Positions 2,692-16,709 of a stretch of 19,187 nucleotides of DNA are shown here, one piece after another. A program made the translations under genes and the position numbers. This DNA comes from an uncultured Flavobacterium sp. (GTDB lineage: Bacteria; Bacteroidota; Bacteroidia; Flavobacteriales; Flavobacteriaceae). The notes beneath the pieces are model-generated. The model made no database searches. It was not told where the DNA came from and saw only the letters and a program-made list of their open reading frames with translations. The stretch covers positions 1 to 19,187 of the forward strand of contig CAMLFV010000020.1 of NCBI GenBank assembly GCA_946479395.1, read 5' to 3'. Position 1 is the first letter of the stretch, and each line of letters starts with the position of its first letter.

Positions 2692-3267
2692 ATGGTTGAA
2701 CTTTTCAAAGCGCATTTAGATAAATTTGTTTCGATAACCAATGTTGAATTCTCTCAAATAATTTCATTTTTTGAAGTGAGATCAATCCGAAAAAAAGAAA
2801 ATCTTTTAGAAGAAGGACAAATATGCAAAGAACATTTTTTTGTTTTGAAAGGTATTTTACGCAAGTTCTACATCAACGAAAAAGGATCTGAGCAAACTAC
2901 CGAATTTGCTATTGAAAACTGGTGGATGACAGATAATATGGCATACAAACATCAATCGCAAACCGAATTTTACATTCAGGCAGTTGAAAAAACAGAACTT
3001 TTAGTCATCACACAAAAAAATCAGGAATTACTTTTAAATAAATTTCCACAATTAGAACGTTATTTCCGGTTTGTTTACCAACATGCGTATGCTGCCGCAC
3101 AAATGCGTATTAAATACATTTTTTCTTTTGCTAAAGACGAATTTTATTTTAATCTTTTAAAGAAACATCCCGAATTTGTTCAGCGTGTTCCGCAATATTT
3201 AATCGCATCTTTTTTAGGTTTTACGCCAGAATATTTAAGCGAAATTCGCAAGAAAAATGTTTCTTAA
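2692..3267 (+). CDS. Crp/Fnr-family transcriptional regulator (short flavobacterial type)
   Basis: The 191-residue protein has an N-terminal cyclic-nucleotide-binding-like beta-roll (about residues 15-120). Segments FEVRSIRKKENLLEEGQIC, FVLKGILRKFYINEKG and IENWWMTDNM are typical of the Bacteroidota Crp/Fnr-like group. The C-terminus is a compact winged helix, with YLIASFLGFTPEYLSEIRKK as the recognition element. No iron-sulphur cysteine set is present, so an FNR-type oxygen sensor is unlikely, and the ligand is unknown. Genes of this type often sit beside small redox or AhpD-like genes that they are thought to control. Here both neighbours, the DHFR-like gene and the carboxymuconolactone decarboxylase gene, are broken, leaving the regulator intact but apparently without its local targets. 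Confidence 0.9.
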   Translation: MVELFKAHLDKFVSITNVEFSQIISFFEVRSIRKKENLLEEGQICKEHFFVLKGILRKFYINEKGSEQTTEFAIENWWMTDNMAYKHQSQTEFYIQAVEKTELLVITQKNQELLLNKFPQLERYFRFVYQHAYAAAQMRIKYIFSFAKDEFYFNLLKKHPEFVQRVPQYLIASFLGFTPEYLSEIRKKNVS

Positions 3268-4198: not shown

Positions 4199-7100
4199 CT
4201 ATCTATTCTTCTTAAAATTCTCTGCTTGTTCCAATACATTTTTATACACATCGTCTTGTGTAATGGGTGGATAACCGAATTGATGCAGTTTTACAATTAT
4301 ATCCATTTTAAGTTGTGCTTTAATATCGTCACGGTCGCTCCAATCAGGATATTTAGCGGTATTGTCAACAATGCTTTTTATTTCACGAGCTAGCTCAAGC
4401 ATCTTATCTTTATCAAATTCAAAACCGTATTGTTTACAAATCATATCCAAAATGTCATAGAAAGCTTTTTCTTCGTAATCTATTCCTAAATCTTGAAACG
4501 AATCCATTTCAACACGAAGTTTGATTATGAGATCCAACATTTGTTCTGCGGTATCAAACTGAATGCCTTCATAATCTAAGATATCACCTTCGCTTCGTTC
4601 ATTATAGCGATTAATGATCGATTGCAATCGCTCTGAAAAATCTTGTCCTTTAACTTTATTAACCTTTTTAAAATCGTTAATTGTCTGTTTCAGTAATCGT
4701 TCTAATATTTTTATTTTCGTATTGGGTAATTCCAAATTAGATATTTTCTCGATGAATTTATCATTGAACAAATCAATCGCATTTGCTTTATTGTCATCTA
4801 ACTTAAAAATCTCTTCAACACCTTCAGAAATAATTGCTTCTTCTACCAACTTAGCAACTTTTGCATTCATTTGAGCCGTATCGGGTGCTTCACCTTTTGT
4901 TAGTTTCACCACAATAGATTTTACTGCAAAATAAAAATGAATTTCATCTACTTCTCTCGAACTAAACAATTCTGAACCGCTTACTAGATTGTATGAAGAT
5001 TTTAGCTTCTTGGTTACATTCACAAAAAACTTCTCAGATTCTTCTGTCAGCAATACCAATTCAGAAGCTCTGTTTAAACAGTTTAAACGCTGAACAGGTA
5101 ATCCTTCAAAATAATCTTTTGTATCAAAGCGATGAAAAAATTGGCGTAATAAATCTAACTGATCTCTAACAATGATTTCTGCTTGTGAAATATCTTCAAA
5201 ATCATCATCGGCAGTTTGATTGTTAAACATACCTAAGGCATGATTCAAATTCTTTTTGATGCCGATATAATCTACTACCAAACCACGATCTTTTCCTTGG
5301 TATTTTCGGTTTACTCGAGAAATAGTCTGTATTAGATTATGTGTTTGCAAAGGTTTGTCAATATAAATCGTATCCAAAAAAGGAACATCAAAACCTGTTA
5401 ACCACATATCAACCACGATGGCAATTTTAAAATTGGAATTGATTTGTTTAAACTGTCGATCCAGTTCTTTACGATCCTCTTTACTACCTAATAAATCCCA
5501 CAATTCCTTTTCATCATCTTTATTACGTGTCATAATCATCTTAACACGCTCAATAGGCTTGATTTCTTTTTGTTCTTTTTCGCTCAATGATTCCGGAAGC
5601 ATCATTTCTCCCCATTCAGGTCGTAAAGCTAAAATCTCTTGATACAACTTGTAAGCAATGCCACGAGAAGCACATACAAACATGACTTTGCCGGCTACTG
5701 TTGCGTTTTCTTCCAAACGATTTTCATAATGCTCCACAAAATCTTTCGCAATTGCTTTTATACGGTCACCATCACCTAAAACCACTTCCATTTTGGCAAT
5801 GGCTTTTTGGCTGGCTTCTACATGATATTCTGATGCACCTTCGGCCACCGCATTTTCATAATATTGTTCAATTTCCTGAACTTTATTGTAATCTAAATTC
5901 ACTTTTGCAGCCCGACCTTCATACACCAATCGCACGGTAATTTCATCATTTACCGATTCAAGCATGGTATATTGATCTACCACGTCACCAAATACTTCTA
6001 ACGTTTTATCAATTGGTGTTCCTGTAAAACCTACATACGTTGCATTTGGTAAGGAATCGTGCAGGTATTTGGCAAAACCATACAATTTCGTAACACCTTT
6101 CTCTTCATCAATTTTTACTTTCAAATCTAAATTGACTTGGGAACGATGGGCTTCATCTGAAATACAAATAATATTGGTTCTGTCTGATAAAATATCTGCA
6201 TCTTCGGCAAACTTTTGTACCGTTGTTAAATACACACCGCCACTTTCAATCCCTTGCAATCGGTTTCTTAAATCAGCTCTTGATTCAATATTGATGATGT
6301 TTTCATCTCCAATAAATTTTTTGGCATTGGTAAAATCTTTAGATAATTGATCGTCTAAATCGGTACGATCGGAAATGATGATGATGGTTGGACTTGCAAA
6401 TTCTGTAGAACGCATCAACAAACGAGAAAGGTACAACATAGTGTAACTCTTACCACAACCTGTTGCTCCAAAATACGTTCCGCCTTTACCATCGCCTTCG
6501 GGTTTACGGTGTTTCAAGATATTTTGATAGAGTTTGTTAGACGCATAATATTTCGGATAACGTGTTAATATTTTCAGTTCGTTTTTTGATGTATCAGGAA
6601 ACAACACAAAGTGATGAATAATATCAACTAAACGGTTTTGGTTCAACATTCCATGAACTATTGAAGTAGTAGTCTCAATACCTGTTAAGGCTTTCTTTTC
6701 TGCTCCAGTAATCTTGTTCCATCCGTAGAAAAATTCGTACGGTGAAAACACTGTTCCGGCTTTATTGTTCACCCCATCACTAATCACACAAAATACATTG
6801 TATTTCATCAGTTCCGGAATATCTTTTTTATAGCGAATTGTCAACTGTTTAAAAGCATTATAGATAGTAACCTTTTCTTCAATCAAAGTCTTAAACTCAA
6901 ATACCACCAACGGAATTCCGTTTATATACAAAATTAAATCAGGAATACGCAGTTCCGAACCTTGAATTTCTAATTGATTGACGATTTTGAAGGTATTGGC
7001 TTGTATGTGCTCAATATCTATATATCGAATATGTAAATCTTTCTTATTAGGATCATTTCGTTTAAAAATCAAACCATCTGCCAATAATTTATAGATGTAT

Positions 7101-7336
7101 TTGTTAGATTCATACAAATTAGAAGCCGATTGAAAAGCGATTTCATTGGTAATGCTTTCCAATTCTATTTCTTCTAAATCTTCATAACGATTCTGTAAAA
7201 ACGCACGCAAATCATCCTTGATCAATACCTCTTGATTCGAGCTTCTCTGCAACTGTTTTCCATCAACATAAGTATAGCCTTCTGTTTCCAAAAGGCTGAT
7301 AAATGCTTGTTCTAATTGAGATTCGGTGTATTTCAT
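4199..7336 (-). CDS. hsdR: Type I restriction endonuclease, R (HsdR) subunit
   Basis: The 1045-residue protein is the DNA-translocating and cleaving subunit of a type I restriction complex (R2M2S), which cuts unmodified DNA far from the recognition site. The N-terminal nuclease domain has PD at 132-133 and E147-F-K149 (IPDLILY then VVFEFKT). The superfamily 2 motor follows: Walker A GATGCGKS at 290-297, DEAH at 394-397, a VGFTGTP motif near 440, DMWLTGFDVP and then QTISRVNR at 670-677. The C-terminal 300 residues are helical and would contact HsdM/HsdS. Length and motifs are complete, so the subunit looks active. It is the last gene of the minus-strand cluster, 29 bases after the AbiEii toxin gene and far from hsdM/hsdS. 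Its nearest upstream promoter-like element is the one before abiEi. Confidence 0.97.
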   Translation of the reverse strand: MKYTESQLEQAFISLLETEGYTYVDGKQLQRSSNQEVLIKDDLRAFLQNRYEDLEEIELESITNEIAFQSASNLYESNKYIYKLLADGLIFKRNDPNKKDLHIRYIDIEHIQANTFKIVNQLEIQGSELRIPDLILYINGIPLVVFEFKTLIEEKVTIYNAFKQLTIRYKKDIPELMKYNVFCVISDGVNNKAGTVFSPYEFFYGWNKITGAEKKALTGIETTTSIVHGMLNQNRLVDIIHHFVLFPDTSKNELKILTRYPKYYASNKLYQNILKHRKPEGDGKGGTYFGATGCGKSYTMLYLSRLLMRSTEFASPTIIIISDRTDLDDQLSKDFTNAKKFIGDENIINIESRADLRNRLQGIESGGVYLTTVQKFAEDADILSDRTNIICISDEAHRSQVNLDLKVKIDEEKGVTKLYGFAKYLHDSLPNATYVGFTGTPIDKTLEVFGDVVDQYTMLESVNDEITVRLVYEGRAAKVNLDYNKVQEIEQYYENAVAEGASEYHVEASQKAIAKMEVVLGDGDRIKAIAKDFVEHYENRLEENATVAGKVMFVCASRGIAYKLYQEILALRPEWGEMMLPESLSEKEQKEIKPIERVKMIMTRNKDDEKELWDLLGSKEDRKELDRQFKQINSNFKIAIVVDMWLTGFDVPFLDTIYIDKPLQTHNLIQTISRVNRKYQGKDRGLVVDYIGIKKNLNHALGMFNNQTADDDFEDISQAEIIVRDQLDLLRQFFHRFDTKDYFEGLPVQRLNCLNRASELVLLTEESEKFFVNVTKKLKSSYNLVSGSELFSSREVDEIHFYFAVKSIVVKLTKGEAPDTAQMNAKVAKLVEEAIISEGVEEIFKLDDNKANAIDLFNDKFIEKISNLELPNTKIKILERLLKQTINDFKKVNKVKGQDFSERLQSIINRYNERSEGDILDYEGIQFDTAEQMLDLIIKLRVEMDSFQDLGIDYEEKAFYDILDMICKQYGFEFDKDKMLELAREIKSIVDNTAKYPDWSDRDDIKAQLKMDIIVKLHQFGYPPITQDDVYKNVLEQAENFKKNR

Positions 7337-7365
7337 GTTTTTTATAGTAGTGTTTGGTATTTGGA

Positions 7366-8364
7366 TTAGTGAGATTGATTCATTAAATCTTCAATTTTTT
7401 TCATTTGTTTAATCAAATCTGTCCAAGATAAACTATCTCCAACAATCATATTTTGTTGCATGATTTTATAATCGGCCTCCCATTGAGCAATTATTTCATC
7501 AGGTGGTAGAATACTCAATTTTCCTTTTTCGTGATTGGAGTAATCGACACCTCGTAAAGGCGTAACCTTTTTACGATGCTCCACTATGGTTTCAAACAAC
7601 TCATTATCAGCAAGAGCTAGTTCTCCAAATCCAGCAACCATCATTTTATCTAAATCGTACAAATGACGCGTCAATCGGTCGGTTCTAATTATATCTATCG
7701 GTTTTGAAAATTCTTCATGTAATAATAAAACCTTCTCTATAAATGTTCGTGTTGGTACAACCACCTGTACATCAAATCCATCCGATGTAAAGGGTAATTC
7801 TTTGTAATTTTCATCAATAAACGAAAGGATGTTTTTAGTTTCAGCTGGTTCTATTAACGATCTTGCTCCCATTTCTAACAATACTCTTTGTTGAATATAA
7901 GGATTGGTCATTGGAACTACAGATTGATAATACACTTCCAATGTATTCGGGTCGCTGGTATCATCAACTTTATCATTATATCGTATTACATATTGGTCAC
8001 GATGAATGCCCAATTGATCCAATTGATGCATCAATTCTTCTCTAAATTCATTGATAATAAATGAACCCGATGCTTTTCTTAGTTTTTTGATTTTCGTACC
8101 TGAATCCAAGTCGTCAAAACCTAACAAATGTCGATCTATGATTAAATCAATATCTTCTGAAAAGCGATCAATGATATGATAGGCTTTACTTAAAGAAGTA
8201 CCTCCTTTAAAAATAATGGAATCTGCATATTGAGATTGAAAGATAGCTTTCAATAAAATACACACCCACCAATCCTTTTCTACAACAAATGCAGGCAAAC
8301 CTTTGGCTATACCTGTTTGTTCTAAAACTTGTATCTTTTGTTCTGTTGATAGGTTAATCCACAT
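7366..8364 (-). CDS. abiEii: AbiEii/AbiGii-family nucleotidyltransferase toxin
   Basis: The 332-residue protein belongs to the DNA polymerase beta-like nucleotidyltransferases. GGTSLSKAY at 54-62 and EDID with D71 and D73 form the nucleotide- and metal-binding site, preceded by VVEKDWWV (27-34). The later ARSLIEPAETK and TRHLYDLDKM segments match the conserved C-terminal motifs of the family. AbiEii is the toxin of abortive-infection type TA systems. Studied members transfer nucleotides, some to tRNA, and stop growth on phage infection. I chose ATG at 8362-8364 (MWINLSTEQK) because homologues start at this point and the longer frame to 8418 runs far into the antitoxin gene. It overlaps the antitoxin stop by 11 bases, so translation is probably coupled. 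Confidence 0.93.
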   Translation of the reverse strand: MWINLSTEQKIQVLEQTGIAKGLPAFVVEKDWWVCILLKAIFQSQYADSIIFKGGTSLSKAYHIIDRFSEDIDLIIDRHLLGFDDLDSGTKIKKLRKASGSFIINEFREELMHQLDQLGIHRDQYVIRYNDKVDDTSDPNTLEVYYQSVVPMTNPYIQQRVLLEMGARSLIEPAETKNILSFIDENYKELPFTSDGFDVQVVVPTRTFIEKVLLLHEEFSKPIDIIRTDRLTRHLYDLDKMMVAGFGELALADNELFETIVEHRKKVTPLRGVDYSNHEKGKLSILPPDEIIAQWEADYKIMQQNMIVGDSLSWTDLIKQMKKIEDLMNQSH

Positions 8365-8968
8365 TTTTAGAAGTTGTATATAGGTTATTGATGTGTTTCT
8401 GTATCCAAACCGGTGCATATTTTACCTGCTTTTGGACCACTTGGGAGTCGAGTTGCACTATAGAAGGCTTTATTTTTTCTATAAACTCTTCGGTTACGTT
8501 GTTTTGGCCCACCTCTTTAAACGCTTGTACAATCAAATGCAACAATTCATCTTTGATGGCAAAACTTTTAGGAACCGTTTTTTTGAATTGAATGCTACGG
8601 TTTCCTATTTTAATTTCTCGTTGCGAACCATCGGACAGATACACCGCTTTTAGAGGAACTTGTGTGGTTAGCCCCAACAAATACAAAGCGAATACACCCG
8701 TTGGGGCAATACGTGCTTTGTCGCGTTGTGCTATTTGCTTGGCTATTTCTTCCGTAGTAGGATAAAGAGTACCTAACAAAGGATCTCTTTTAGGTTTTAG
8801 ATAAATGCCTTGAGCCAAACGTTCTAATATGCCTTCATTAACCAAACGAAAAAGCGTTAAACGGATATTACCAGCTGAACCATACGCATAGAAATCTTCA
8901 GCGAAAAACATTTCGCCTAACGATGATTTTAAAATCTTTGTTTCTATTTGATTTTTAGAGGATTTCAC
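8354..8968 (-). CDS. AbiEi-like antitoxin (DUF6088 type)
   Basis: The 204-residue protein starts with a winged-helix DNA-binding domain (about residues 1-60): KILKSSLGEMFFAEDFYAY, then IRLTLFRLVNEGILERLAQG and a basic wing IYLKPKRDP. The middle (about 65-135) has ALYLLGLTTQVPLKAVYLSDG, a pattern seen in DUF6088/AbiEi proteins. The C-terminal part is helical. AbiEi antitoxins repress their own operon and block the paired AbiEii toxin. Here the gene precedes and overlaps abiEii, and a perfect 17-bp inverted repeat lies 16 bases before its ATG, which fits autoregulation. A gap of 124 bases separates it from the OLD gene, so it likely begins a transcription unit. Confidence 0.88.
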   Translation of the reverse strand: MKSSKNQIETKILKSSLGEMFFAEDFYAYGSAGNIRLTLFRLVNEGILERLAQGIYLKPKRDPLLGTLYPTTEEIAKQIAQRDKARIAPTGVFALYLLGLTTQVPLKAVYLSDGSQREIKIGNRSIQFKKTVPKSFAIKDELLHLIVQAFKEVGQNNVTEEFIEKIKPSIVQLDSQVVQKQVKYAPVWIQKHINNLYTTSKNVD

Positions 8969-8983
8969 TTGGTAATGTCATTT

Positions 8984-9022
8984 TATTTTGTAACAAATTT
9001 AGTGAAAATTTGTTACAAAATA
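8984..9022 (-). promoter_or_regulatory. Operator-promoter of the abiE module: 17-bp perfect inverted repeat over a -7 box
   Basis: TATTTTGTAACAAATTT (8984-9000) and its exact reverse complement (9006-9022) are separated by AGTGA. Each arm itself contains an 11-bp dyad TTTGTnACAAA, centred near 8992 and 9014, 22 bp apart and so on roughly the same helix face. On the minus strand TAAATTTG (9001-8994) is an exact -7 consensus, inside the left arm and spacer. Transcription would start about 20 bases before the abiEi ATG. A repressor filling both sites would cover the promoter completely. AbiEi is the obvious candidate, since studied AbiEi proteins bind inverted repeats at their own promoter. Confidence 0.8.
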
Positions 9023-9092
9023 TATTTCTTTATTCGTTCGTTTGAATGACTTATTAAAGCTTTTACTAATTGTGATTTGGTGTGTTTCATGA

Positions 9093-10838
9093 TTATTTAT
9101 GAGAAATAATGTTTTTTAAATACTTAATAATAGGAACATTATCTATCTCATTAGACGTTAAATTTGGCTGCAATACTTCTTTCCAATACAAGTTGGCATT
9201 ATAAGGTTTACCATCAGAAATTAAATAATCTTTATATCTATATTTTTCTAAAATATTTTCATCTTTATGAGCCGGCTCAAAAGTTGGTGTATTTACTTGT
9301 AATAGTCCACAAGAATAATTCTGTTTTTCATAATCAAATTTTAATTGTTGATAAATAGATTTTTGAATTCCAGATTCAAAAGGTATTAATCCATGACTGT
9401 CTAATTCTTTCAACTCTGCTTTATCGGAGTCACAAATAATATGATATTTAATATTAAATCTTGAAAATATTTTCTGAAAGAAAGGAATATTACTCACTGT
9501 ACCACAATTGACTACAAAAATATCTTTATCTGTTTCTACTTCATTGAAATATCCTCTTAAAATAATTTCTTCTGTTGGTCCTTCAATTAAAACAACTTCA
9601 TCAGCATAAAAAGATTCGCATATAAATGGGTTGAATCTTAATACTTCATTCATTTCTTGTTTTAATTCTTCTTTAGTTCTAATGTCTTTTGAATTTTTTA
9701 AAAATTCATCATTTATTTGAAATAATCGTGTTCCGTCATCATGCTTCACCATCCTAACCAATGATGATTTTTCTTTTGTTATGTCTATCATTTGAGGTGA
9801 ATGTGATGCACATAAAACCTGATATGGTGTATCAGTTTCACTAACTTTATAGATTAATGTACGCAATTGCTTCATTAATTTGGGATGAAGAAATAATTCT
9901 GGTTCTTCAAAAAGTACGATGTAATCTTTTCTGTTTTCTACTCTTTGAAACTCTTCAGCAACATCCTTCATTAACAATAATGAAAAAATAGCAGATCTAA
10001 CAGCACCATGTCCTACTCGGTCATGACTTGTTGGAATCGTTTCATCTTTCTCACCATTACTATTATGCTCAAAATGAATCGAAAAACTTTTACCTATTGA
10101 ATTCTCAGTCCATTTAGCTTTATCCTTTTCACTCAATTCAATTTTTGTATTTGGAAACAGAGATTGGAAATATTTATTTACTTCTGCTTTGTAAGATTGA
10201 ATTGATTCTGGATTATATAGTTTATCTTGTAACTCTTGAATTTTAGCTTGTGCTTCTTTTAGCTCTTGTCGTTCTTTATCTTCTAAATTAGCATTTGCTT
10301 TTTGCTTTAAAATTTCATTTATAATAGCTTCTCCTTCTGCTTCAGTAGGCATGGCTTTAATAAAAATAGGAGTCGGTAAAGCAGCTTGAAATACAGTATG
10401 TAAGCCAATTCCTCCATAGTTTTTTACTTCATATTTGCTATTAATATAATCCCAAGTGTAGTTTTCTATTTCAGGAGTAATTTTTTTTGCTGAATTTGCT
10501 TTTACTACTCTTTTAACTTTTAATAAATTATTTTCATTAAGCCATTTTTTGAGACCTTCTTTCTTATTTATAATAGCATCTTTATCAAAATCATATTCAT
10601 CTAGTTGTAATACTATTTCAAATTCAATCTCATTTTCAATATTCATTCTATAAAAATCTTCTAATGTTGCATTTGAATTCTTATAATAAAATTCATAAGC
10701 TTTTAAAAAGCTTGACTTCCCAACGTTATTTTGACCTAATAGAAAAATTGTGTTAGAATTGTTAAATTCTATAGTATTGTTTTCTAATCCACCTGCAATT
10801 CCTCGAAAGTTATTTACCCCAAAAGATATAATCTTCAT
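9093..10838 (-). CDS. OLD-family ATP-dependent nuclease (ABC-type ATPase plus TOPRIM)
   Basis: The 581-residue protein has an N-terminal ATPase of the RecF/SMC type, starting MKIISFGVNNFRGI, with Walker A GQNNVGKSS at 35-43. A helical insert with charged coiled-coil character follows (about 165-215). Walker B is VLFEEPELFLHP near 310, then VLCASHSPQMIDI (H-loop). The C-terminal TOPRIM domain has VVLIEGPTEE (near 419) and HIICDSDKAE (near 470), the metal-binding residues for DNA cleavage. OLD nucleases include phage P2 Old and the Gabija GajA protein. Neither neighbour is a UvrD-like GajB helicase, and no partner is visible, so this is best read as a stand-alone (class 1-type) OLD. It lies 20 bases after hsdS in the same direction and is probably co-transcribed with hsdM-hsdS. 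Confidence 0.92.
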   Translation of the reverse strand: MKIISFGVNNFRGIAGGLENNTIEFNNSNTIFLLGQNNVGKSSFLKAYEFYYKNSNATLEDFYRMNIENEIEFEIVLQLDEYDFDKDAIINKKEGLKKWLNENNLLKVKRVVKANSAKKITPEIENYTWDYINSKYEVKNYGGIGLHTVFQAALPTPIFIKAMPTEAEGEAIINEILKQKANANLEDKERQELKEAQAKIQELQDKLYNPESIQSYKAEVNKYFQSLFPNTKIELSEKDKAKWTENSIGKSFSIHFEHNSNGEKDETIPTSHDRVGHGAVRSAIFSLLLMKDVAEEFQRVENRKDYIVLFEEPELFLHPKLMKQLRTLIYKVSETDTPYQVLCASHSPQMIDITKEKSSLVRMVKHDDGTRLFQINDEFLKNSKDIRTKEELKQEMNEVLRFNPFICESFYADEVVLIEGPTEEIILRGYFNEVETDKDIFVVNCGTVSNIPFFQKIFSRFNIKYHIICDSDKAELKELDSHGLIPFESGIQKSIYQQLKFDYEKQNYSCGLLQVNTPTFEPAHKDENILEKYRYKDYLISDGKPYNANLYWKEVLQPNLTSNEIDNVPIIKYLKNIISHK

Positions 10839-10858
10839 AATTTTAGTGTTTCTTTAGT

Positions 10859-12094
10859 TTATAGTATTTTAGTTTTAGTTACCCCCTCCAACGTTGCCAA
10901 GCGACTTAACAACAACGCTTGAAGTTGAGTGAGTTTTTGGTTTTGTTTTACTTTGTTAATTATTTGTTCAAAAACTTGAAAAAATTTATCATTAAATAAT
11001 TTAATAATATTATAGTTATATACAATTTTTATGTTTCTAATAAAACTTAATGTAATATATTTCTGAGTACTACCATTTAGCTCGCTTTCTAAATAGATTT
11101 TAAAATCAGTACTATTTAAAAACAAGTATAAAAATGATCTAAATTCTAAATAATTAGATGTTTTTATTAATCCTAAATTCTTAATAGCAAAGTCAATGGA
11201 TTTATAAGTGACTAAATTAACAGTACCAACAGTACCTATCATTGAAACCAAAATATCTCCAAAATCAACTTTACTACGTTTATTAACTTGGATAAAATCA
11301 ATTTCAGAAATACTATATGCATTATTTAAATCAATATCAAATTTATTTATATGCATTGATGTAATCAATTTATTTCCTTCTCGTACTTCTTTTGGTGAAT
11401 CATGTGTTCCATCTTTACATTCTACAATATCTCCCAAACTCTTCAACTCCCAACCCTCAGGAATTTCCTTTTCTAATTCTTGGTTGTACACCATTGCACC
11501 GCCAGAGGATTTGTAAGGTTGTCCTTCTTCGTTCGGAAATTCAAAATCAACAAACCATTGCTTGTACAACGTTTGAGCAGTTGCTTCTAACTTCTCGCAG
11601 ATTTGTTCGTTGACTTTTATTTTGTTTTCTACCGCTTGGTATTGGGCTACAATTTCGCGCTGTTTTTCGATGGATGGAATTCTAATTTCAATTGATTTTA
11701 ATGCATCTAAACTTAATCCACCACGTACGTCTGCATCTGTATAAAACCAACATTGTCTATCAAATTTACTTCTACGAAACCAAAGCATTAAATATTCTGG
11801 AATAACCTCTTCATCTATCACTTCAAACACATCGTAAGCAGGAGAAACAATAAATGGATAATCATAGGTAGACATTGAAATTGGTAATCGTTCATCTCTT
11901 CCAACGTGCATTCTATTACATGCAAATTGATTCTTTACAACGACTTTGTATTTTTTTAAATCAACTCCAATCGTATTTGCTACAGAAGGCATAAAGAATT
12001 TATCAATATTAATTCCGTAAAGAATAGTTGCAATACCATCTACATTTTTATTAGAAATAAATTTGACAATATCTCCTAACTTTTTATAACTCAT
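10859..12094 (-). CDS. hsdS: Type I restriction-modification specificity (HsdS) subunit
   Basis: HsdS reads the bipartite recognition site for both the methyltransferase and the nuclease. The 411-residue protein has two target-recognition domains. TRD1 covers about residues 1-150 and ends at the conserved IRIPSIEKQREIVAQYQAV. The central helix follows (VENKIKVNEQICEKLEATAQ, then LYKQWFVDFEFPNEEGQPY). TRD2 runs from about 215 (EIPEGWELKSLGDIVECKDG) to about 370, before the distal helix FEQIINKVKQNQKLTQLQAL. The N-terminal TRD starts directly at MSYKKLGDIVKF, with a short lead, as is common. It overlaps hsdM by 11 bases, typical of a tight hsdMS pair. No second hsdS copy or inverted repeat that would allow specificity switching is present in the window. 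Confidence 0.95.
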   Translation of the reverse strand: MSYKKLGDIVKFISNKNVDGIATILYGINIDKFFMPSVANTIGVDLKKYKVVVKNQFACNRMHVGRDERLPISMSTYDYPFIVSPAYDVFEVIDEEVIPEYLMLWFRRSKFDRQCWFYTDADVRGGLSLDALKSIEIRIPSIEKQREIVAQYQAVENKIKVNEQICEKLEATAQTLYKQWFVDFEFPNEEGQPYKSSGGAMVYNQELEKEIPEGWELKSLGDIVECKDGTHDSPKEVREGNKLITSMHINKFDIDLNNAYSISEIDFIQVNKRSKVDFGDILVSMIGTVGTVNLVTYKSIDFAIKNLGLIKTSNYLEFRSFLYLFLNSTDFKIYLESELNGSTQKYITLSFIRNIKIVYNYNIIKLFNDKFFQVFEQIINKVKQNQKLTQLQALLLSRLATLEGVTKTKIL

Positions 12095-13643
12095 AGCCCA
12101 ACGATTTAAACACGTTTGCTACTTCTTGTTTCAAGGCTTCTTCTTGCTGAAACAAGTCTTTCAATTCGGTTTGCAACGTTTGCATTTGGGTATCGTAATC
12201 GATATTTTCGTCACGGTTGACAAACTCAATATATTTACTTGGTACCAACGAATAATCTTTTTTAAGGATCTCTTCTAAGGTTGCAGAGTAACAATATTCG
12301 GGTTCGTTCGCATAAGTCGTAGCTACATCTTTTTGTTGCCAGTTGTGATAGGTTGATGCTATCTGCTCAATATCTTGTTCAGCAAACTGAATGAACTTCT
12401 TTTCAAACGGTTCACCCTTTTGGCGTAAATCCATAAACAACACTTCACCTTCACGGTTACGATAGTTTTTCACGCCATCGTTTACTTCCACAGTGCGTTC
12501 TGTTTTATTACGGTTCAATATCCAAAGCGTTACCGAAATATCTGTAGAATAAAACATGGCTCTTGGTAAAATCACAATCGCTTCTACCAAGTCGTTTTCT
12601 ATAATTTGTTTACGGATTTTGTATTCTTCACCACCACCCGAAAGGGCACCATTGGCTAAGATAAAACCAGCGACACCGTTTTGCGACAATTTCGAAATCA
12701 TGTTCAAAATCCACGCATAGTTGGCATTGGATTTTGGAGGCACTTCGTAACCTGTCCAACGTGGATCGTCGGTTAATTCGTTTTCAGCGCGCCAATCTTT
12801 TAAGTTGAACGGCGGATTCGCCATGATGTAATCGGCTTTCAGTTCTTTATGCTGATCGTCACTAAACGTATCGGCGGCTTTATTTCCTAAATTGGCAGAA
12901 ATCCCACGAATGGCTAAGTTCATTTTTGCCAGTTTAAAGGTGGTGTTCGTTAACTCTTGTCCGTAAATGGAAATGTCTTTTTTGTTGCCTTGGTGTTTTT
13001 CAATAAACTTCAACGACTGCACAAACATACCACCCGAACCACAAGAAGGGTCATAGATTTTTCCTTTGTAGGGTTCAATCATTTCGGCAATTAAGTTTAC
13101 AATTGACTTTGGCGTATAGAATTCACCTTTCCCTTTTCCTTCGGCAATGGCAAACTTGCTCAGGAAATATTCGTACACACGCCCCACAATGTCCTGGGCT
13201 TCATCACGAAGCGTATCGATGTTGTTGATGGTATCCAATAATGCCGAAAACTTAGATTGATCCAATCCTAAGCGAGAGAAATAGTTATCCGGCAACGCAC
13301 CTTCTAACGATTTGTTGGTACGTTCTATGGTTTTAAGTGCAGTATCTACTTTTAGGGTAATATCTTCTTGTTTGGCGTTTTCAATAATGTATTCCCAACG
13401 CGATGCTGATGGCAAATAAAATACATTTTCTGCCTGATAAAATTCCGGTATTTCTAAGAAGGCTTCTTTTCCTTCTGCAATCAATTCTTCTCTACGTTTA
13501 ATAAATTTATCGCTTGCAAACTTTAAAAAGATCAAACTTAATACTACATGTTTATATTCAGATGGTTCTACTGAACCACGTAATTTATTGGCAGAATCCC
13601 ATAGGATTTCTTCGGTACTTTTTGTTTGGACTTTTTTAGCCAT
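12084..13643 (-). CDS. hsdM: Type I DNA adenine methyltransferase (HsdM) subunit
   Basis: The 519-residue protein methylates adenine N6 within the HsdS-defined site, protecting host DNA. An N-terminal helical domain (about 1-165) starts with EEILWDSANKLRGSVEPSEYKH. The Rossmann methyltransferase core has GEFYTPKSIVNLIAEMI, the SAM-binding motif DPSCGSGGMF from D198, and catalytic NPPF at 276-279. EGEVLFMDLRQKGEPFEKKF and a helical C-terminus complete the family layout. All key residues are intact. It is the first gene of the minus-strand defence cluster, with a promoter-like box 24 bases before its ATG, and overlaps hsdS. Confidence 0.97.
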   Translation of the reverse strand: MAKKVQTKSTEEILWDSANKLRGSVEPSEYKHVVLSLIFLKFASDKFIKRREELIAEGKEAFLEIPEFYQAENVFYLPSASRWEYIIENAKQEDITLKVDTALKTIERTNKSLEGALPDNYFSRLGLDQSKFSALLDTINNIDTLRDEAQDIVGRVYEYFLSKFAIAEGKGKGEFYTPKSIVNLIAEMIEPYKGKIYDPSCGSGGMFVQSLKFIEKHQGNKKDISIYGQELTNTTFKLAKMNLAIRGISANLGNKAADTFSDDQHKELKADYIMANPPFNLKDWRAENELTDDPRWTGYEVPPKSNANYAWILNMISKLSQNGVAGFILANGALSGGGEEYKIRKQIIENDLVEAIVILPRAMFYSTDISVTLWILNRNKTERTVEVNDGVKNYRNREGEVLFMDLRQKGEPFEKKFIQFAEQDIEQIASTYHNWQQKDVATTYANEPEYCYSATLEEILKKDYSLVPSKYIEFVNRDENIDYDTQMQTLQTELKDLFQQEEALKQEVANVFKSLGYEL

Positions 13644-15174: not shown

Positions 15175-16404
15175 TTACAATTTTGTAATTGCCTTCTGAA
15201 TTAGTTTCATGTTAGACTTGCTGATTTCAAATTCTTCAGACAACCTCATCCACTTTGCAAGTGCAGAACGAGTTTGCTCAATAACATTTTCTACAAATTC
15301 TTTTGACAACTTCGCTTCTAAACCTAGTTTAGTAAGATGCCTGACACTTATATTTCGTCCTTCTCCCATAACCATTGTACTTTGCTCTCCTGCTGGACCG
15401 TTGGAAAAAGTAAGGTCGTAAGCAGGTGATAATTTCCATTCGCCAAATTCATTCATCAGAAATGTAAAATTTTTTGAGTGATCGTCTCTATTGTGTGCCA
15501 TGACATTAAAAACCGCTAATCGAAACATATTTTCTACTTCTCGAATATCTTTCGTTAATACACCTGTCAATGACAATAAATCTTCATAGTCAAGAGACGG
15601 AAATCTAAAATTATTATAAATCAAACCGCTGACCGTATGCATGTGTAAACGTTTGTTGCCATTTCTGTCAAAACGTTTTACAGCAAAATAGCCATTTCCC
15701 CTTTGGGAAGAAAACAAATGAATTGTCGGCATTTCAATTCCAGCATCTATCGCCATTAATGCGTAAACATATTCTATTGCGCCGGCATCAGTTCCATCTT
15801 GCGAATTTGGAAATTTTACCATCCAGTGTTCAAAACCATTGCTTAGCTGATCTGTTCCATGTATTATGTTTTTTCTTTCAGAATCAATACCAATCAATGC
15901 TTTTGGTCGTGCTCCGGCAGAAGATCCGTTCAAAGCTAAAAGTTCTGCAATTACTTCTTCCGATTCACCCTCCAAAACTTCCTGGGTGTGACTAGCCAGT
16001 AAATCCAAATCAATCATTTCATCGTTTCTATTAAGGCTTTGATCAGGTTCATAAACTAAAGCACCTAAACCATTTAATCCAACATGCGCTAAACGATCAA
16101 GTGGAGATATATCTGTCGCAGAAAAACCTTCCGAACGAAGTAAACGATCAAAAAGTAACCTTCCCCAACCATCTGGTAAACTATCGTTGAAAACTCCAGC
16201 TAAACCCTCAAAAGGAATTTGGGGAAGTTCTATCACACCACGTTGCAAAGGAAGTTTTATAGGAGAAATTTCTAAATTGCTATGCAAAAAAGCTTCATCA
16301 TATTCAAAATAGATCATGGTATTACGAATAGCCAAACGCCCAACGGGTTGAATTCCAGAGCCGAAATTCAAACCTACTTTTATTTCTTTAACAGCTGTTT
16401 TCAT
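15175..16404 (-). CDS. hipA: HipA-family serine/threonine kinase toxin
   Basis: The 409-residue protein is a full-length HipA. HipA toxins phosphorylate translation factors, in E. coli glutamyl-tRNA synthetase, and produce dormancy. The N-terminal subdomain is VGRLAIRNTMIYFEYDEAFL and then LPLQRGVIELPQIPFEGLAG, followed by FNDSLPDGWGRLLFDRLL, a family signature. The phosphate-loop region is SSAGARPKALIG from S161, the ATP-binding lysine lies in FAVKRFDR, and the catalytic loop is HNRDDHSKN from H304 with D307 as the likely base. SPAYDLTFS is the metal-binding segment. All expected residues are present, so it looks active. It overlaps hipB by 4 bases. Confidence 0.95.
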   Translation of the reverse strand: MKTAVKEIKVGLNFGSGIQPVGRLAIRNTMIYFEYDEAFLHSNLEISPIKLPLQRGVIELPQIPFEGLAGVFNDSLPDGWGRLLFDRLLRSEGFSATDISPLDRLAHVGLNGLGALVYEPDQSLNRNDEMIDLDLLASHTQEVLEGESEEVIAELLALNGSSAGARPKALIGIDSERKNIIHGTDQLSNGFEHWMVKFPNSQDGTDAGAIEYVYALMAIDAGIEMPTIHLFSSQRGNGYFAVKRFDRNGNKRLHMHTVSGLIYNNFRFPSLDYEDLLSLTGVLTKDIREVENMFRLAVFNVMAHNRDDHSKNFTFLMNEFGEWKLSPAYDLTFSNGPAGEQSTMVMGEGRNISVRHLTKLGLEAKLSKEFVENVIEQTRSALAKWMRLSEEFEISKSNMKLIQKAITKL

Positions 16405-16709
16405 TTTCTGCTTCCTCGTTTTCTAGTTGGTTTTTCCTCTGATTTTAATACTTCGTCAATAGATTTAAAATGTTGCTCTTTGGGTTTTAAAGCATCAACT
16501 ATCTCTTCTAAACCACCAACAACCGAAAGTATTTTTAAAAATGAATCCAAAGAAATTACTCCCTTTTGTTCAAATTTTCGCAATGTTGATAATGGCACAC
16601 CAGCTCTCTCCGACAAACCTTCCTGAGTCAGTTCCATTTGTAATCGTCGGGCACGGATGCTTTCAACGATTTTTCTCTGTACTTTTGACAACGATATAAA
16701 TAACATCAT
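16401..16709 (-). CDS. hipB: HipB-like antitoxin, XRE-type DNA-binding protein
   Basis: The 102-residue protein has a helix-turn-helix at about residues 10-70: IVESIRARRLQMELTQEGLS, ERAGVPLSTLRKFEQ, then SLDSFLKILSVVGGLEEIVD. The last 25 residues are lysine/arginine-rich (EEKPTRKRGSRK) and probably flexible, as in other HipB proteins, where the tail contacts the toxin or is degraded. Start codons ATG at 16709 and 16706 are adjacent; either is possible. Antitoxin-first order with a 4-base overlap is standard for hipBA. The upstream region carries repeated dyad elements around an exact -7 box, fitting autorepression. Confidence 0.93.
   Translation of the reverse strand: MMLFISLSKVQRKIVESIRARRLQMELTQEGLSERAGVPLSTLRKFEQKGVISLDSFLKILSVVGGLEEIVDALKPKEQHFKSIDEVLKSEEKPTRKRGSRK

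Follow-up and report, generated by a model that had tools for sequence, protein, structure and literature searches.

We analysed a 19,187-nt stretch of DNA from an uncultured Flavobacterium sp. (assembly GCA_946479395.1, contig CAMLFV010000020.1), referred to below as the window, which carries a type I restriction-modification (RM) operon whose hsdS and hsdR genes are separated by a gene for an OLD nuclease and by an AbiE toxin-antitoxin (TA) pair. The original prediction had placed hsdM-hsdS-OLD-abiEi-abiEii-hsdR in this order on one strand, and this is borne out, with all six genes on the minus strand. The genes and the other features that matter here are the following.

12084-13643, minus strand: hsdM, type I DNA methyltransferase subunit, 519 aa (Pfam N6_Mtase 1.8e-104, HsdM_N 1.2e-21)
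10859-12094, minus strand: hsdS, type I specificity subunit, 411 aa (Pfam Methylase_S 2.6e-19)
10838-10948, minus strand: s-tail element, the last ~90 bp of hsdS plus intergenic DNA, which recurs between hsdS and hsdR of relatives as the fossils described below (blastn, WIN(rc) 8240-8350; nhmmer)
9093-10838, minus strand: OLD, ATPase/TOPRIM nuclease, 581 aa, the cargo gene on the hsdS side (Pfam AAA_15 5e-21, OLD-like_TOPRIM 8.9e-15; PADLOC Old 9.3e-66)
9045-9090, minus strand: probable hsdR-start fossil (r-head), MKHTKSQLVKALISH against MKYTESQLEQAFISL in hsdR (nhmmer, translation)
8984-9022, strandless: 39-bp dyad TATTTTGTAACAAATTTTCACTAAATTTGTTACAAAATA with perfect 17-bp arms, presumed AbiEi operator/promoter
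8354-8968, minus strand: abiEi, GTG start, DUF6088 antitoxin, 204 aa (Pfam DUF6088 3.3e-62; PADLOC AbiEi 1.6e-64)
7366-8418, minus strand: abiEii, nucleotidyltransferase toxin, 350 aa, or 332 aa from the ATG at 8364 (Pfam AbiEii PF08843 1.3e-34; PADLOC 2.3e-100)
4199-7336, minus strand: hsdR, restriction subunit, 1045 aa, the right conserved border (Pfam HSDR_N, SWI2_SNF2, T1RH-like_C)

Pfam and PADLOC agree with the gene families that had been named, and the predicted spacings hold as well: hsdM and hsdS overlap by 11 bases, gaps of 20, 124 and 29 bases separate hsdS from OLD, OLD from abiEi and abiEii from hsdR, and the overlap of abiEi with abiEii is 11 bases as predicted when abiEii starts at the ATG at 8364, or 65 bases from the earlier start. 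The 124-base gap holds an apparent decayed copy of the hsdR start together with the dyad. A type I system has separate genes for M (N6 methylase), S (target recognition) and R (PD-ExK nuclease and SF2 translocase), and all three are present, each with Pfam matches; hsdM, 84-96% identical across the 22 close relatives that carry it, is the conserved border on the left. HsdR aligns to the HsdR of EcoR124I (PDB 2w00, 2.3e-24) through the nuclease and helicase regions and carries DLILYINGIPLVVFEFK, GATGCGKS and DEAH. We take FEFK, GATGCGKS and DEAH in HsdR, NPPF in HsdM, GQNNVGKS, LFEEPELFLHP and a TOPRIM-type EG..DSD in OLD and KGGTSLSKAY..SEDIDL in AbiEii, all assigned by eye, to be the catalytic motifs, and by eye these look intact in the four proteins. 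At 10882-10887 hsdS reads GGGGG ahead of the usual stop, against GGGG in most relatives in the tail alignment, and with this one extra G HsdS is 7 residues longer; the five-G run is a possible slippage site.

The OLD protein combines an ABC-type ATPase with an OLD TOPRIM domain, both above cut-off, and matches the OLD-family nuclease of PDB 6p74 (3.4e-11). Gabija (GajAB) was considered and rejected: the best GajA model reaches 8.7e-20 compared to 9.3e-66 for Old, and since the next gene is abiEi and no UvrD-like helicase of the GajB kind the locus is not Gabija. AbiEii scores 120.6 bits with PF08843 against a cut-off of 22.5 and faintly resembles AbiGII (9hlo, E 0.01). Together with abiEi, which its gene overlaps, it makes up the antitoxin-toxin pair expected of AbiE, a type IV TA system. 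AbiEi is of the DUF6088 kind, because it falls far below the cut-off of the NCBIfam AbiEi equivalog (20 vs 150). A small open reading frame (ORF) before abiEi was considered as a lost antitoxin and dropped when comparison showed its resemblance to the hsdR start.

The operon was compared with loci of relatives, designated L followed by a number, whose HsdR proteins are 49-95% identical to that of the window. Scanning genome contigs with HsdR gave 28 loci; an HsdR search found a strong match in 17 of 395 Flavobacteriales and 28 of 397 Flavobacteriaceae genomes (some of them in both), for which 27 stretches were fetched, and adding a Chryseobacterium plasmid locus (L032) brings the total read for gene order to 56 loci besides the window. 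The plasmid search returned 264 HsdR records, the best at 60.9% identity, and a search of viral contigs with HsdR gave no match. Gene content was judged by BLAST to the window's genes. We call the interval from the hsdS end to the hsdR start the slot and count it as filled when it exceeds 300 bp, in the 53 loci, window included, that have both of these ends; L005, L013, L024 and L084, the four of the 56 on contigs without hsdS, are thereby excluded. The slot is filled in 51 of the 53, with a median of 4394 bp and a maximum of 7046, and only L022 and L023, both distant (HsdR 49%), are empty. In E. coli, by comparison, the hsdS-hsdR junction is contiguous in 854 of 856 genomes matching a junction query of a related system, in a sample that is clonal and biased and with pieces up to ~700 bp apart joined, so that small inserts could hide among the 854; one of the other two genomes is listed, with a match to hsdS alone. 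The contrast is biased, yet clear. The slot of a Klebsiella locus from the plasmid search is empty, all three Psychrobacter loci have one gene in it, that of L032 is filled, and an E. coli 'plasmid' stretch (L030) has unannotated DNA at the expected position of hsdM and hsdS.

In this lineage the slot is thus nearly always filled, and its cargo is varied. Cargo was named by Pfam on 40 of 155 extracted proteins (38 representatives of cargo clusters or singles plus two downstream proteins), ten of them also by PADLOC, and other members were assigned by clustering with these. The slots hold SIR2-pAgo (L004), a HamB-type helicase as in Hachiman (L001, and L011 by clustering), an RdrB-like protein as in RADAR (L007, and L015 by clustering), GmrSD (L006, L010), AAA_13 proteins of the RloC/PrrC kind (L010 by Pfam, L079 by similarity), a KAP ATPase (L009, and L027 by clustering), SIR2 with HerA (L018, and L025 by clustering), STAND/DUF4062 (L019), TIR (L011, L026), Fic (L008, and L012 by clustering), Schlafen/AlbA (L014), PD-(D/E)XK (L002 and six clustered with its member), an OLD-like protein (L008), Abi_C (L017) and HipBA (L016, by similarity to the window's HipA); a reverse transcriptase with RhuM lies upstream of hsdR in L005, where hsdS is off the contig. 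No Pfam match at E 0.001 was found for 10 of the 38 scanned cargo proteins. The exact set of the window, this OLD and the AbiE pair between hsdS and hsdR, occurs in none of the 56 other loci by BLAST to the window's genes.

An alignment of the window and its relatives further revealed that slots contain additional short copies of two sequences, ~90 bp around the hsdS end and ~50 bp of the hsdR start, which we call hsd fossils (s-fossils and r-fossils). In 24 close loci, a count that excludes L005, L013 and L021-L023 as well as a degraded hsdR-start copy seen in L008, profile searches detected 11 copies of the hsdR start, spread over 10 loci, and 10 of the hsdS end, spread over 8, with at least one copy in 14 of the 24. 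A control used 100-bp test windows along hsdR and hsdM, the interior of hsdS being outside it: hsdR 1-100 gave 11 extra copies, hsdR 3001-3100 gave one (L008) and 19 other hsdR test windows gave none, and ten hsdM test windows gave one match, to a paralogous hsdM. The copies are also confined to the hsd locus at the level of whole genomes. Among 16 of the 23 sibling genomes (~52 Mb; the seven left out are mostly of Chryseobacterium type), the hsdR start has 26 places at E 0.01, namely 16 genes and 10 fossils, all of the latter 0.8-3.6 kb upstream of hsdR, and the hsdS end has 24 places in 14 of the 16 genomes, namely 14 genes and 10 fossils, none of them away from the hsd locus. Two E. coli chromosomes had additional hsdR-start places; the stretches fetched from them proved to be an ordinary hsd locus without annotation in the slot, and the idea that these places are fossils was rejected.

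The position of the fossils was measured from the stop of the preceding cargo gene. Nine of 11 r-fossils begin at -4 to +14 nt, which is where a directly following hsdR would begin, and the others at +64 and +95; all ten s-fossils begin at -18 to +13 nt. Within hsdR, the r-fossils of the close group reach to ~35-93 bp and those of L104 and L032 to ~107 bp. Because several have lost their start codon (L012, L017, L018), we take them as decaying relics and not as selected leaders. Where a locus has both counted kinds (L004, L014, L016, L017), the s-fossil is left of the r-fossil in four of four cases, which we read as the slot having grown at both edges. In the window the ATG of the r-head lies 2 nt after the OLD stop, the r-head is 41/51 identical to the head of the window's own hsdR (nhmmer E 2.8e-4 and 5.1e-4), and clearer r-heads stand at the same place in L012 (1.3e-5) and L018 (3.9e-8), where this stretch is 91-95% identical. 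A parallel is found in the more distant L104 (HsdR 59%), with abiEi-abiEii between an hsdR-start fossil and hsdR; that fossil is 126/138 identical to its own hsdR and is preceded by an apparent abiEii remnant. This favours a repeated use of the hsdR border by AbiE cassettes. In L008 an extra ~195-bp copy of the hsdR end (15175-15369) lies downstream of a HipA-like gene that is itself downstream of hsdR, and the hsdR end may be a third joint.

Many cassette borders, then, carry hsdR-start or hsdS-end fossils, and we are confident, short of certainty, in seeing here a type I RM operon whose hsdS-hsdR interval is a slot for exchangeable, independent defence cassettes. OLD would probably be the inner cassette, once immediately before hsdR, and the AbiE pair (operator, antitoxin and toxin) is likely to be a second cassette that carries a dyad of its own and is flanked by the fossil hsdR start on one side and by intact hsdR on the other; alternatively, the OLD side of the window could have been exchanged up to the relic. 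Separate additions of OLD and abiEi are suggested by the fossil that lies between them. In the mechanism we propose, new cassettes would stack at the two slot edges by recombination, with one side anchored in the long conserved hsdS or hsdR and the other joined non-homologously, and with each stacking a short stretch of the earlier border would remain. Homologous exchange at such remnants would later reshuffle the units among loci. HsdMSR would modify self DNA and cut unmodified DNA, OLD would act as an independent ATP-driven nuclease, and AbiEi would repress its own promoter and restrain the AbiEii nucleotidyltransferase. Because their company varies from locus to locus, the modules are best seen as giving parallel protection, which would not amount to one sensing cascade.

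The histories of the two window cassettes in other genomes illustrate this variation. Window-type OLD occupies the slot without AbiE in L083 (85%) and L098 (70%), and it is found in 1 of 397 Flavobacteriaceae genomes (L098 itself) and in 3 of 320 Weeksellaceae genomes. Two of the latter copies are intact and lie in 19-kb stretches without a recognisable hsd gene (L110, L111), so an obligate partnership of OLD with hsd is rejected; the third, on a contig of 6 kb, is interrupted by TGA codons, and its context cannot be judged. The 23 sibling genomes gave only a 26% match to OLD, the 120 homologues listed out of 781 reach Enterobacteria at ~55%, and on a Vibrio plasmid a homologue likewise lies away from any annotated hsd gene. 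OLD is thus rare and mobile, and it uses the slot without needing it. An OLD homologue with 20 in-frame TGA codons (L109/L112, G956 contig 84) either comes from a genome in which TGA codes for an amino acid or is a decayed gene. As for AbiE, abiEi is present at 93-97% identity in L004, L008, L012 and L018, each time with other genes after it: Fic in L008 and L012, a 222-aa protein in L004 and a reverse gene in L018. A piece of abiEii (73%) lies beyond hsdR in L004, a 75% abiEi 7.5 kb beyond hsdR in L020, a full abiEi-abiEii pair (63% and 68%) before hsdR in L104, without OLD, and distant AbiEii-like genes before hsdR in L090 and L096.

Exchange between loci becomes apparent when the cargo is compared with hsdR. 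Sixty locus pairs share a cargo block of more than 500 bp, and in 45 of them the cargo is closer than hsdR; for pairs with hsdR aligned over more than 2500 bp this holds in 30 of 40, by more than 5 points in 16. L026 and L081 share cargo at 98.9% over 2361 bp with hsdR at 86.3%, L008 and L012 at 96.2% over 1882 bp with hsdR at 77.0%, the window and L004 an abiEi block at 95.7% with hsdR at 80.6%, and the window and L083 OLD at 81.3% with hsdR at 70% over the alignable part. Additionally, trees of 23 HsdM and 23 HsdR proteins disagree. The window and L019 have HsdR proteins 95% identical, both within one supported HsdR set of four. With groups chosen after viewing the trees, the HsdM data reject a clade of the window and L019 (approximately unbiased test, p-AU 3.8e-4) and the wider HsdR group of four, and the HsdR data reject the HsdM grouping of the window with six others, a group of seven (p-AU 9.6e-5). 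Recombination has thus pulled hsdM and hsdR apart. The slot is likely the crossover zone between them, and the cargo moves largely independently of hsdR.

Several observations weigh against the capture slot or limit it. The shared cargo is not closer than hsdR in 15 of the 60 pairs, the contrary ones including L019/L020 (cargo 74.5%, hsdR 82.8%) and L093/L094 (85.4% vs 94.3%). The window's own fossil is weak and convinces mainly via L012 and L018. No fossil was detected in 10 of the 24 close loci nor in any of five further close loci (L078-L082), and among 23 more distant loci the hsdR-start fossil is confined to L032 and L104, one of which adds a weak hsdS-end match, so the scars are common in one group of loci and not universal. 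Some insertions may look scarless: L027 resembles L009 plus a PDDEXK gene, with no s-fossil detected. Fossils often match the hsdR of another lineage better than their own (L001: 97/105 to L026, 67/87 to its own), and no empty-site ancestor of the window was found. Finally, a loose recurrence of an OLD-like gene on the left and a TA gene on the right could still hide cooperation.

The last point bears on the original prediction, in which three nested systems act as layers. As a description of one unit the nesting stands; as functional layering it is not supported. A layered device would have restriction act first, with OLD and AbiE coupled to it and firing on failed restriction or DNA ends. 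The compact co-directional gene order would suit such a device, as would the recurrence just mentioned, which is seen, without statistics, in L008 (OLD-like, abiEi and Fic) and L016 (OLD-like and HipBA). According to the accessible part of PMC12707154, inhibition of restriction activates PrrC, which is embedded in the type IC locus ecoprrI, and DNA breaks activate its homologue RloC. In a PrrC-type test neither OLD nor AbiEii of the window matches AAA_13. For TgvAB of Vibrio the sections available of PMC11411939 point both ways, in that tgvAB by itself gave less protection against several phages than the complete cluster of five genes did, but a cluster with an HsdR nuclease mutant protected like the unmodified one. 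What makes a layered device very unlikely is that its parts do not keep together: relatives carry different insertions and none of the 56 has the full set, as the first half of the prediction's own refuting condition had it, OLD occurs without AbiE (L083, L098) and without nearby hsd genes (L110, L111), and a nearly identical abiEi has Fic after it in two loci (L008, L012) and other genes in two more (L004, L018). The opposite extreme, in which cargo would land at any place close to RM genes through ordinary defence-island crowding, with nothing special about the slot, could draw on the further defence-like genes that flank many loci, such as an AAA_5 plus McrBC-like module after hsdR in 8 of 28 loci and the HipBA pair 1.5 kb upstream of the window's hsdM. 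We find this hardly credible given that the hsdS-hsdR interval itself is filled in 51 of 53 loci and that the extra copies of its two borders occur only at the hsd locus in the 16 genomes searched.

A further question is how the fossils arose. They could be target duplications, made by a transposition-like insertion with a long target duplication or by a site-specific recombinase whose attachment sites would be the hsdR start and the hsdS end. This would account for the copy-cassette-copy geometry at the hsdS end, at the hsdR start and once at the hsdR end (L008 15175-15369), long and variable target duplications have been described for RM systems (PMC3031569, in the portion available), and the fossils of L104 and L032 are nearest to their own hsdR (rank 1 of 54). 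The own locus never ranked first in 12 r-head and 10 s-tail comparisons, and since fossils so often match other lineages better they do not establish that the local target was simply duplicated. The duplicated unit of L104 takes in the apparent end of an abiEii gene, pointing to tandem duplication or the integration of a circle more than to duplication of a naive target. Simple target duplication as the sole mechanism was dropped on these two grounds. No recombinase family appeared among the 40 scanned cargo and downstream proteins, in which no systematic search for one was made. We regard this origin of the fossils as doubtful, and recombination at the slot edges as the better account. A regulatory explanation addresses instead why a module next to hsdR is kept: its promoter would control hsdR, and AbiEi would repress restriction together with the toxin, delaying restriction until the host is methylated. 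The dyad stands directly upstream of abiEi-abiEii-hsdR, whose genes overlap or lie 29 bases apart, TA-like genes also adjoin hsdR in L008 and L012 (Fic) and in L090, L096 and L104 (AbiEii-like), and RptR regulates an embedded TA-RM island in E. coli (PMC12255303, in the part available). Such regulatory capture seems improbable to us, as the hsdR-proximal cargo is not TA-like in many loci, and promoter-like sites number 42 against 43.8 in shuffles, i.e. no enrichment, in a scan that does not cover Bacteroidota-type promoters.

AbiEi proteins repress their own expression through inverted repeats. The dyad upstream of abiEi is kept in L004 (with one arm mismatch), L008, L012 and L018, and in L020 and L104 it is symmetrically changed, from GTAAC to GTCAC and from GTTAC to GTGAC. 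With abiEi overlapping abiEii and hsdR following abiEii after just 29 bases, an AbiEi-controlled promoter may transcribe hsdR as well. The dyad was also considered as a Bacteroidota promoter and set aside, its spacing not fitting the consensus. That a near-constant DUF6088 antitoxin and dyad are followed by varied genes, AbiEii in the window, raises the question of whether this is a promiscuous antitoxin or a stray regulator.

Some further observations concern the cargo and the flanks. Schlafen/AlbA-type proteins are in the slots of L014, L083, L094, L097, L099, L100, L101 and L104, immediately before hsdR in seven of the eight; the assignment is by Pfam in L014, and the proteins of L083 and L094 are only 23-25% similar to that one. 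A protein of 205-222 aa stands immediately before hsdR in L001 (10151-10774), L004 (9242-9910), L017 (9369-10004) and L078 (12304-12921), behind an hsdR-start fossil in three of the four; its L001 member has no Pfam match, a 43% relative is present in L103, and we consider it a candidate defence gene. The AAA_5 ATPase and McrBC-like module after hsdR (Pfam in L002, by clustering elsewhere) belongs to L002, L003, L007, L010, L012, L019, L020 and L024. The hsdR of L004 has an in-frame stop at codon 10, so restriction may be off or translation may begin downstream. The HipBA pair of the window (15175-16709, minus strand) has 90-95% identical counterparts downstream of hsdR in L018 (13688-15219) and L019 (18538-20069), and being found on the opposite side there it too relocates around the hsd locus.

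Embedding of defence genes between hsdS and hsdR is already published. In the RRDM island of enteropathogenic E. coli (EPEC), DarTG2 lies between hsdS and hsdR at a site called a potential recombination hotspot (Zhang et al. 2025, PMC12255303, consulted in part), which resembles the window in having a TA pair between these type I genes. The island differs in having no second embedded system such as OLD, the available part of that report mentions no hsd fossils, and it describes a promoter-side repressor, RptR (79 aa), that is not seen in the window, where the sole operon-strand ORF of 20 or more aa between hsdM and the next gene is 20 aa long (ORFs only, no profile) and the one exact TAGCTA, the motif repeated in the RptR-controlled promoter, lies inside hsdM. 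From partial texts, TgvAB inside the type I RM operon of Vibrio pathogenicity island 2 (VPI-2) of V. cholerae (PMC11411939) and PrrC in ecoprrI (PMC12707154) are likewise defence genes inside a type I RM cluster, but TgvAB is GmrSD-like and PrrC an anticodon nuclease, whereas the window's cargo is OLD and AbiE and turns over between genomes. The hsd loci of Campylobacter jejuni have intervening rlo/mlo ORFs and rearrangements (PMC5183652, citing Miller et al. 2005); they differ in that ORFs also lie between hsdS and hsdM, and the accessible text mentions no hsd fossils. Embedded defences as a general phenomenon have been called 'guilt-by-embedding' (Payne et al. 2024 preprint, as cited in the part of PMC12988326 available). 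Long target duplications are known from the insertion of RM genes described by the Kobayashi group (as cited in the accessible part of PMC3031569), with the difference that there RM inserts into the genome and here defence genes insert into an RM operon. Relics of the hsdS end and hsdR start between cargo genes were found described nowhere in the literature searched, itself seen in part and leaving out most subscription papers and preprints. The hsd fossils are the new element, and the combination in the window is one of many in the lineage.

A wider reading would make the type I hsd loci of Flavobacteriia and Sphingobacteriia integrase-free capture arrays, with cassettes stacked at the hsdS end and hsdR start, the fossils serving as homology for exchange, and a new specificity gene imported together with defence genes while hsdM and hsdR stay constant; we think this reasonable, at slightly less than an even chance. 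The reading in which three systems cooperate is replaced by a testable growth rule for defence islands, and the sequence itself can tell in what order cargo was acquired, since a fossil marks the cargo that formerly adjoined hsdS or hsdR. The slot also offers a bounded place to seek new defence genes, being filled in nearly every locus of this lineage where nearly every E. coli junction is contiguous. The regulatory novelty would be the AbiEi dyad upstream of abiEi-abiEii-hsdR, which could put hsdR under AbiEi control, and if the AbiEi promoter drives hsdR the choice of cargo would also tune restriction.

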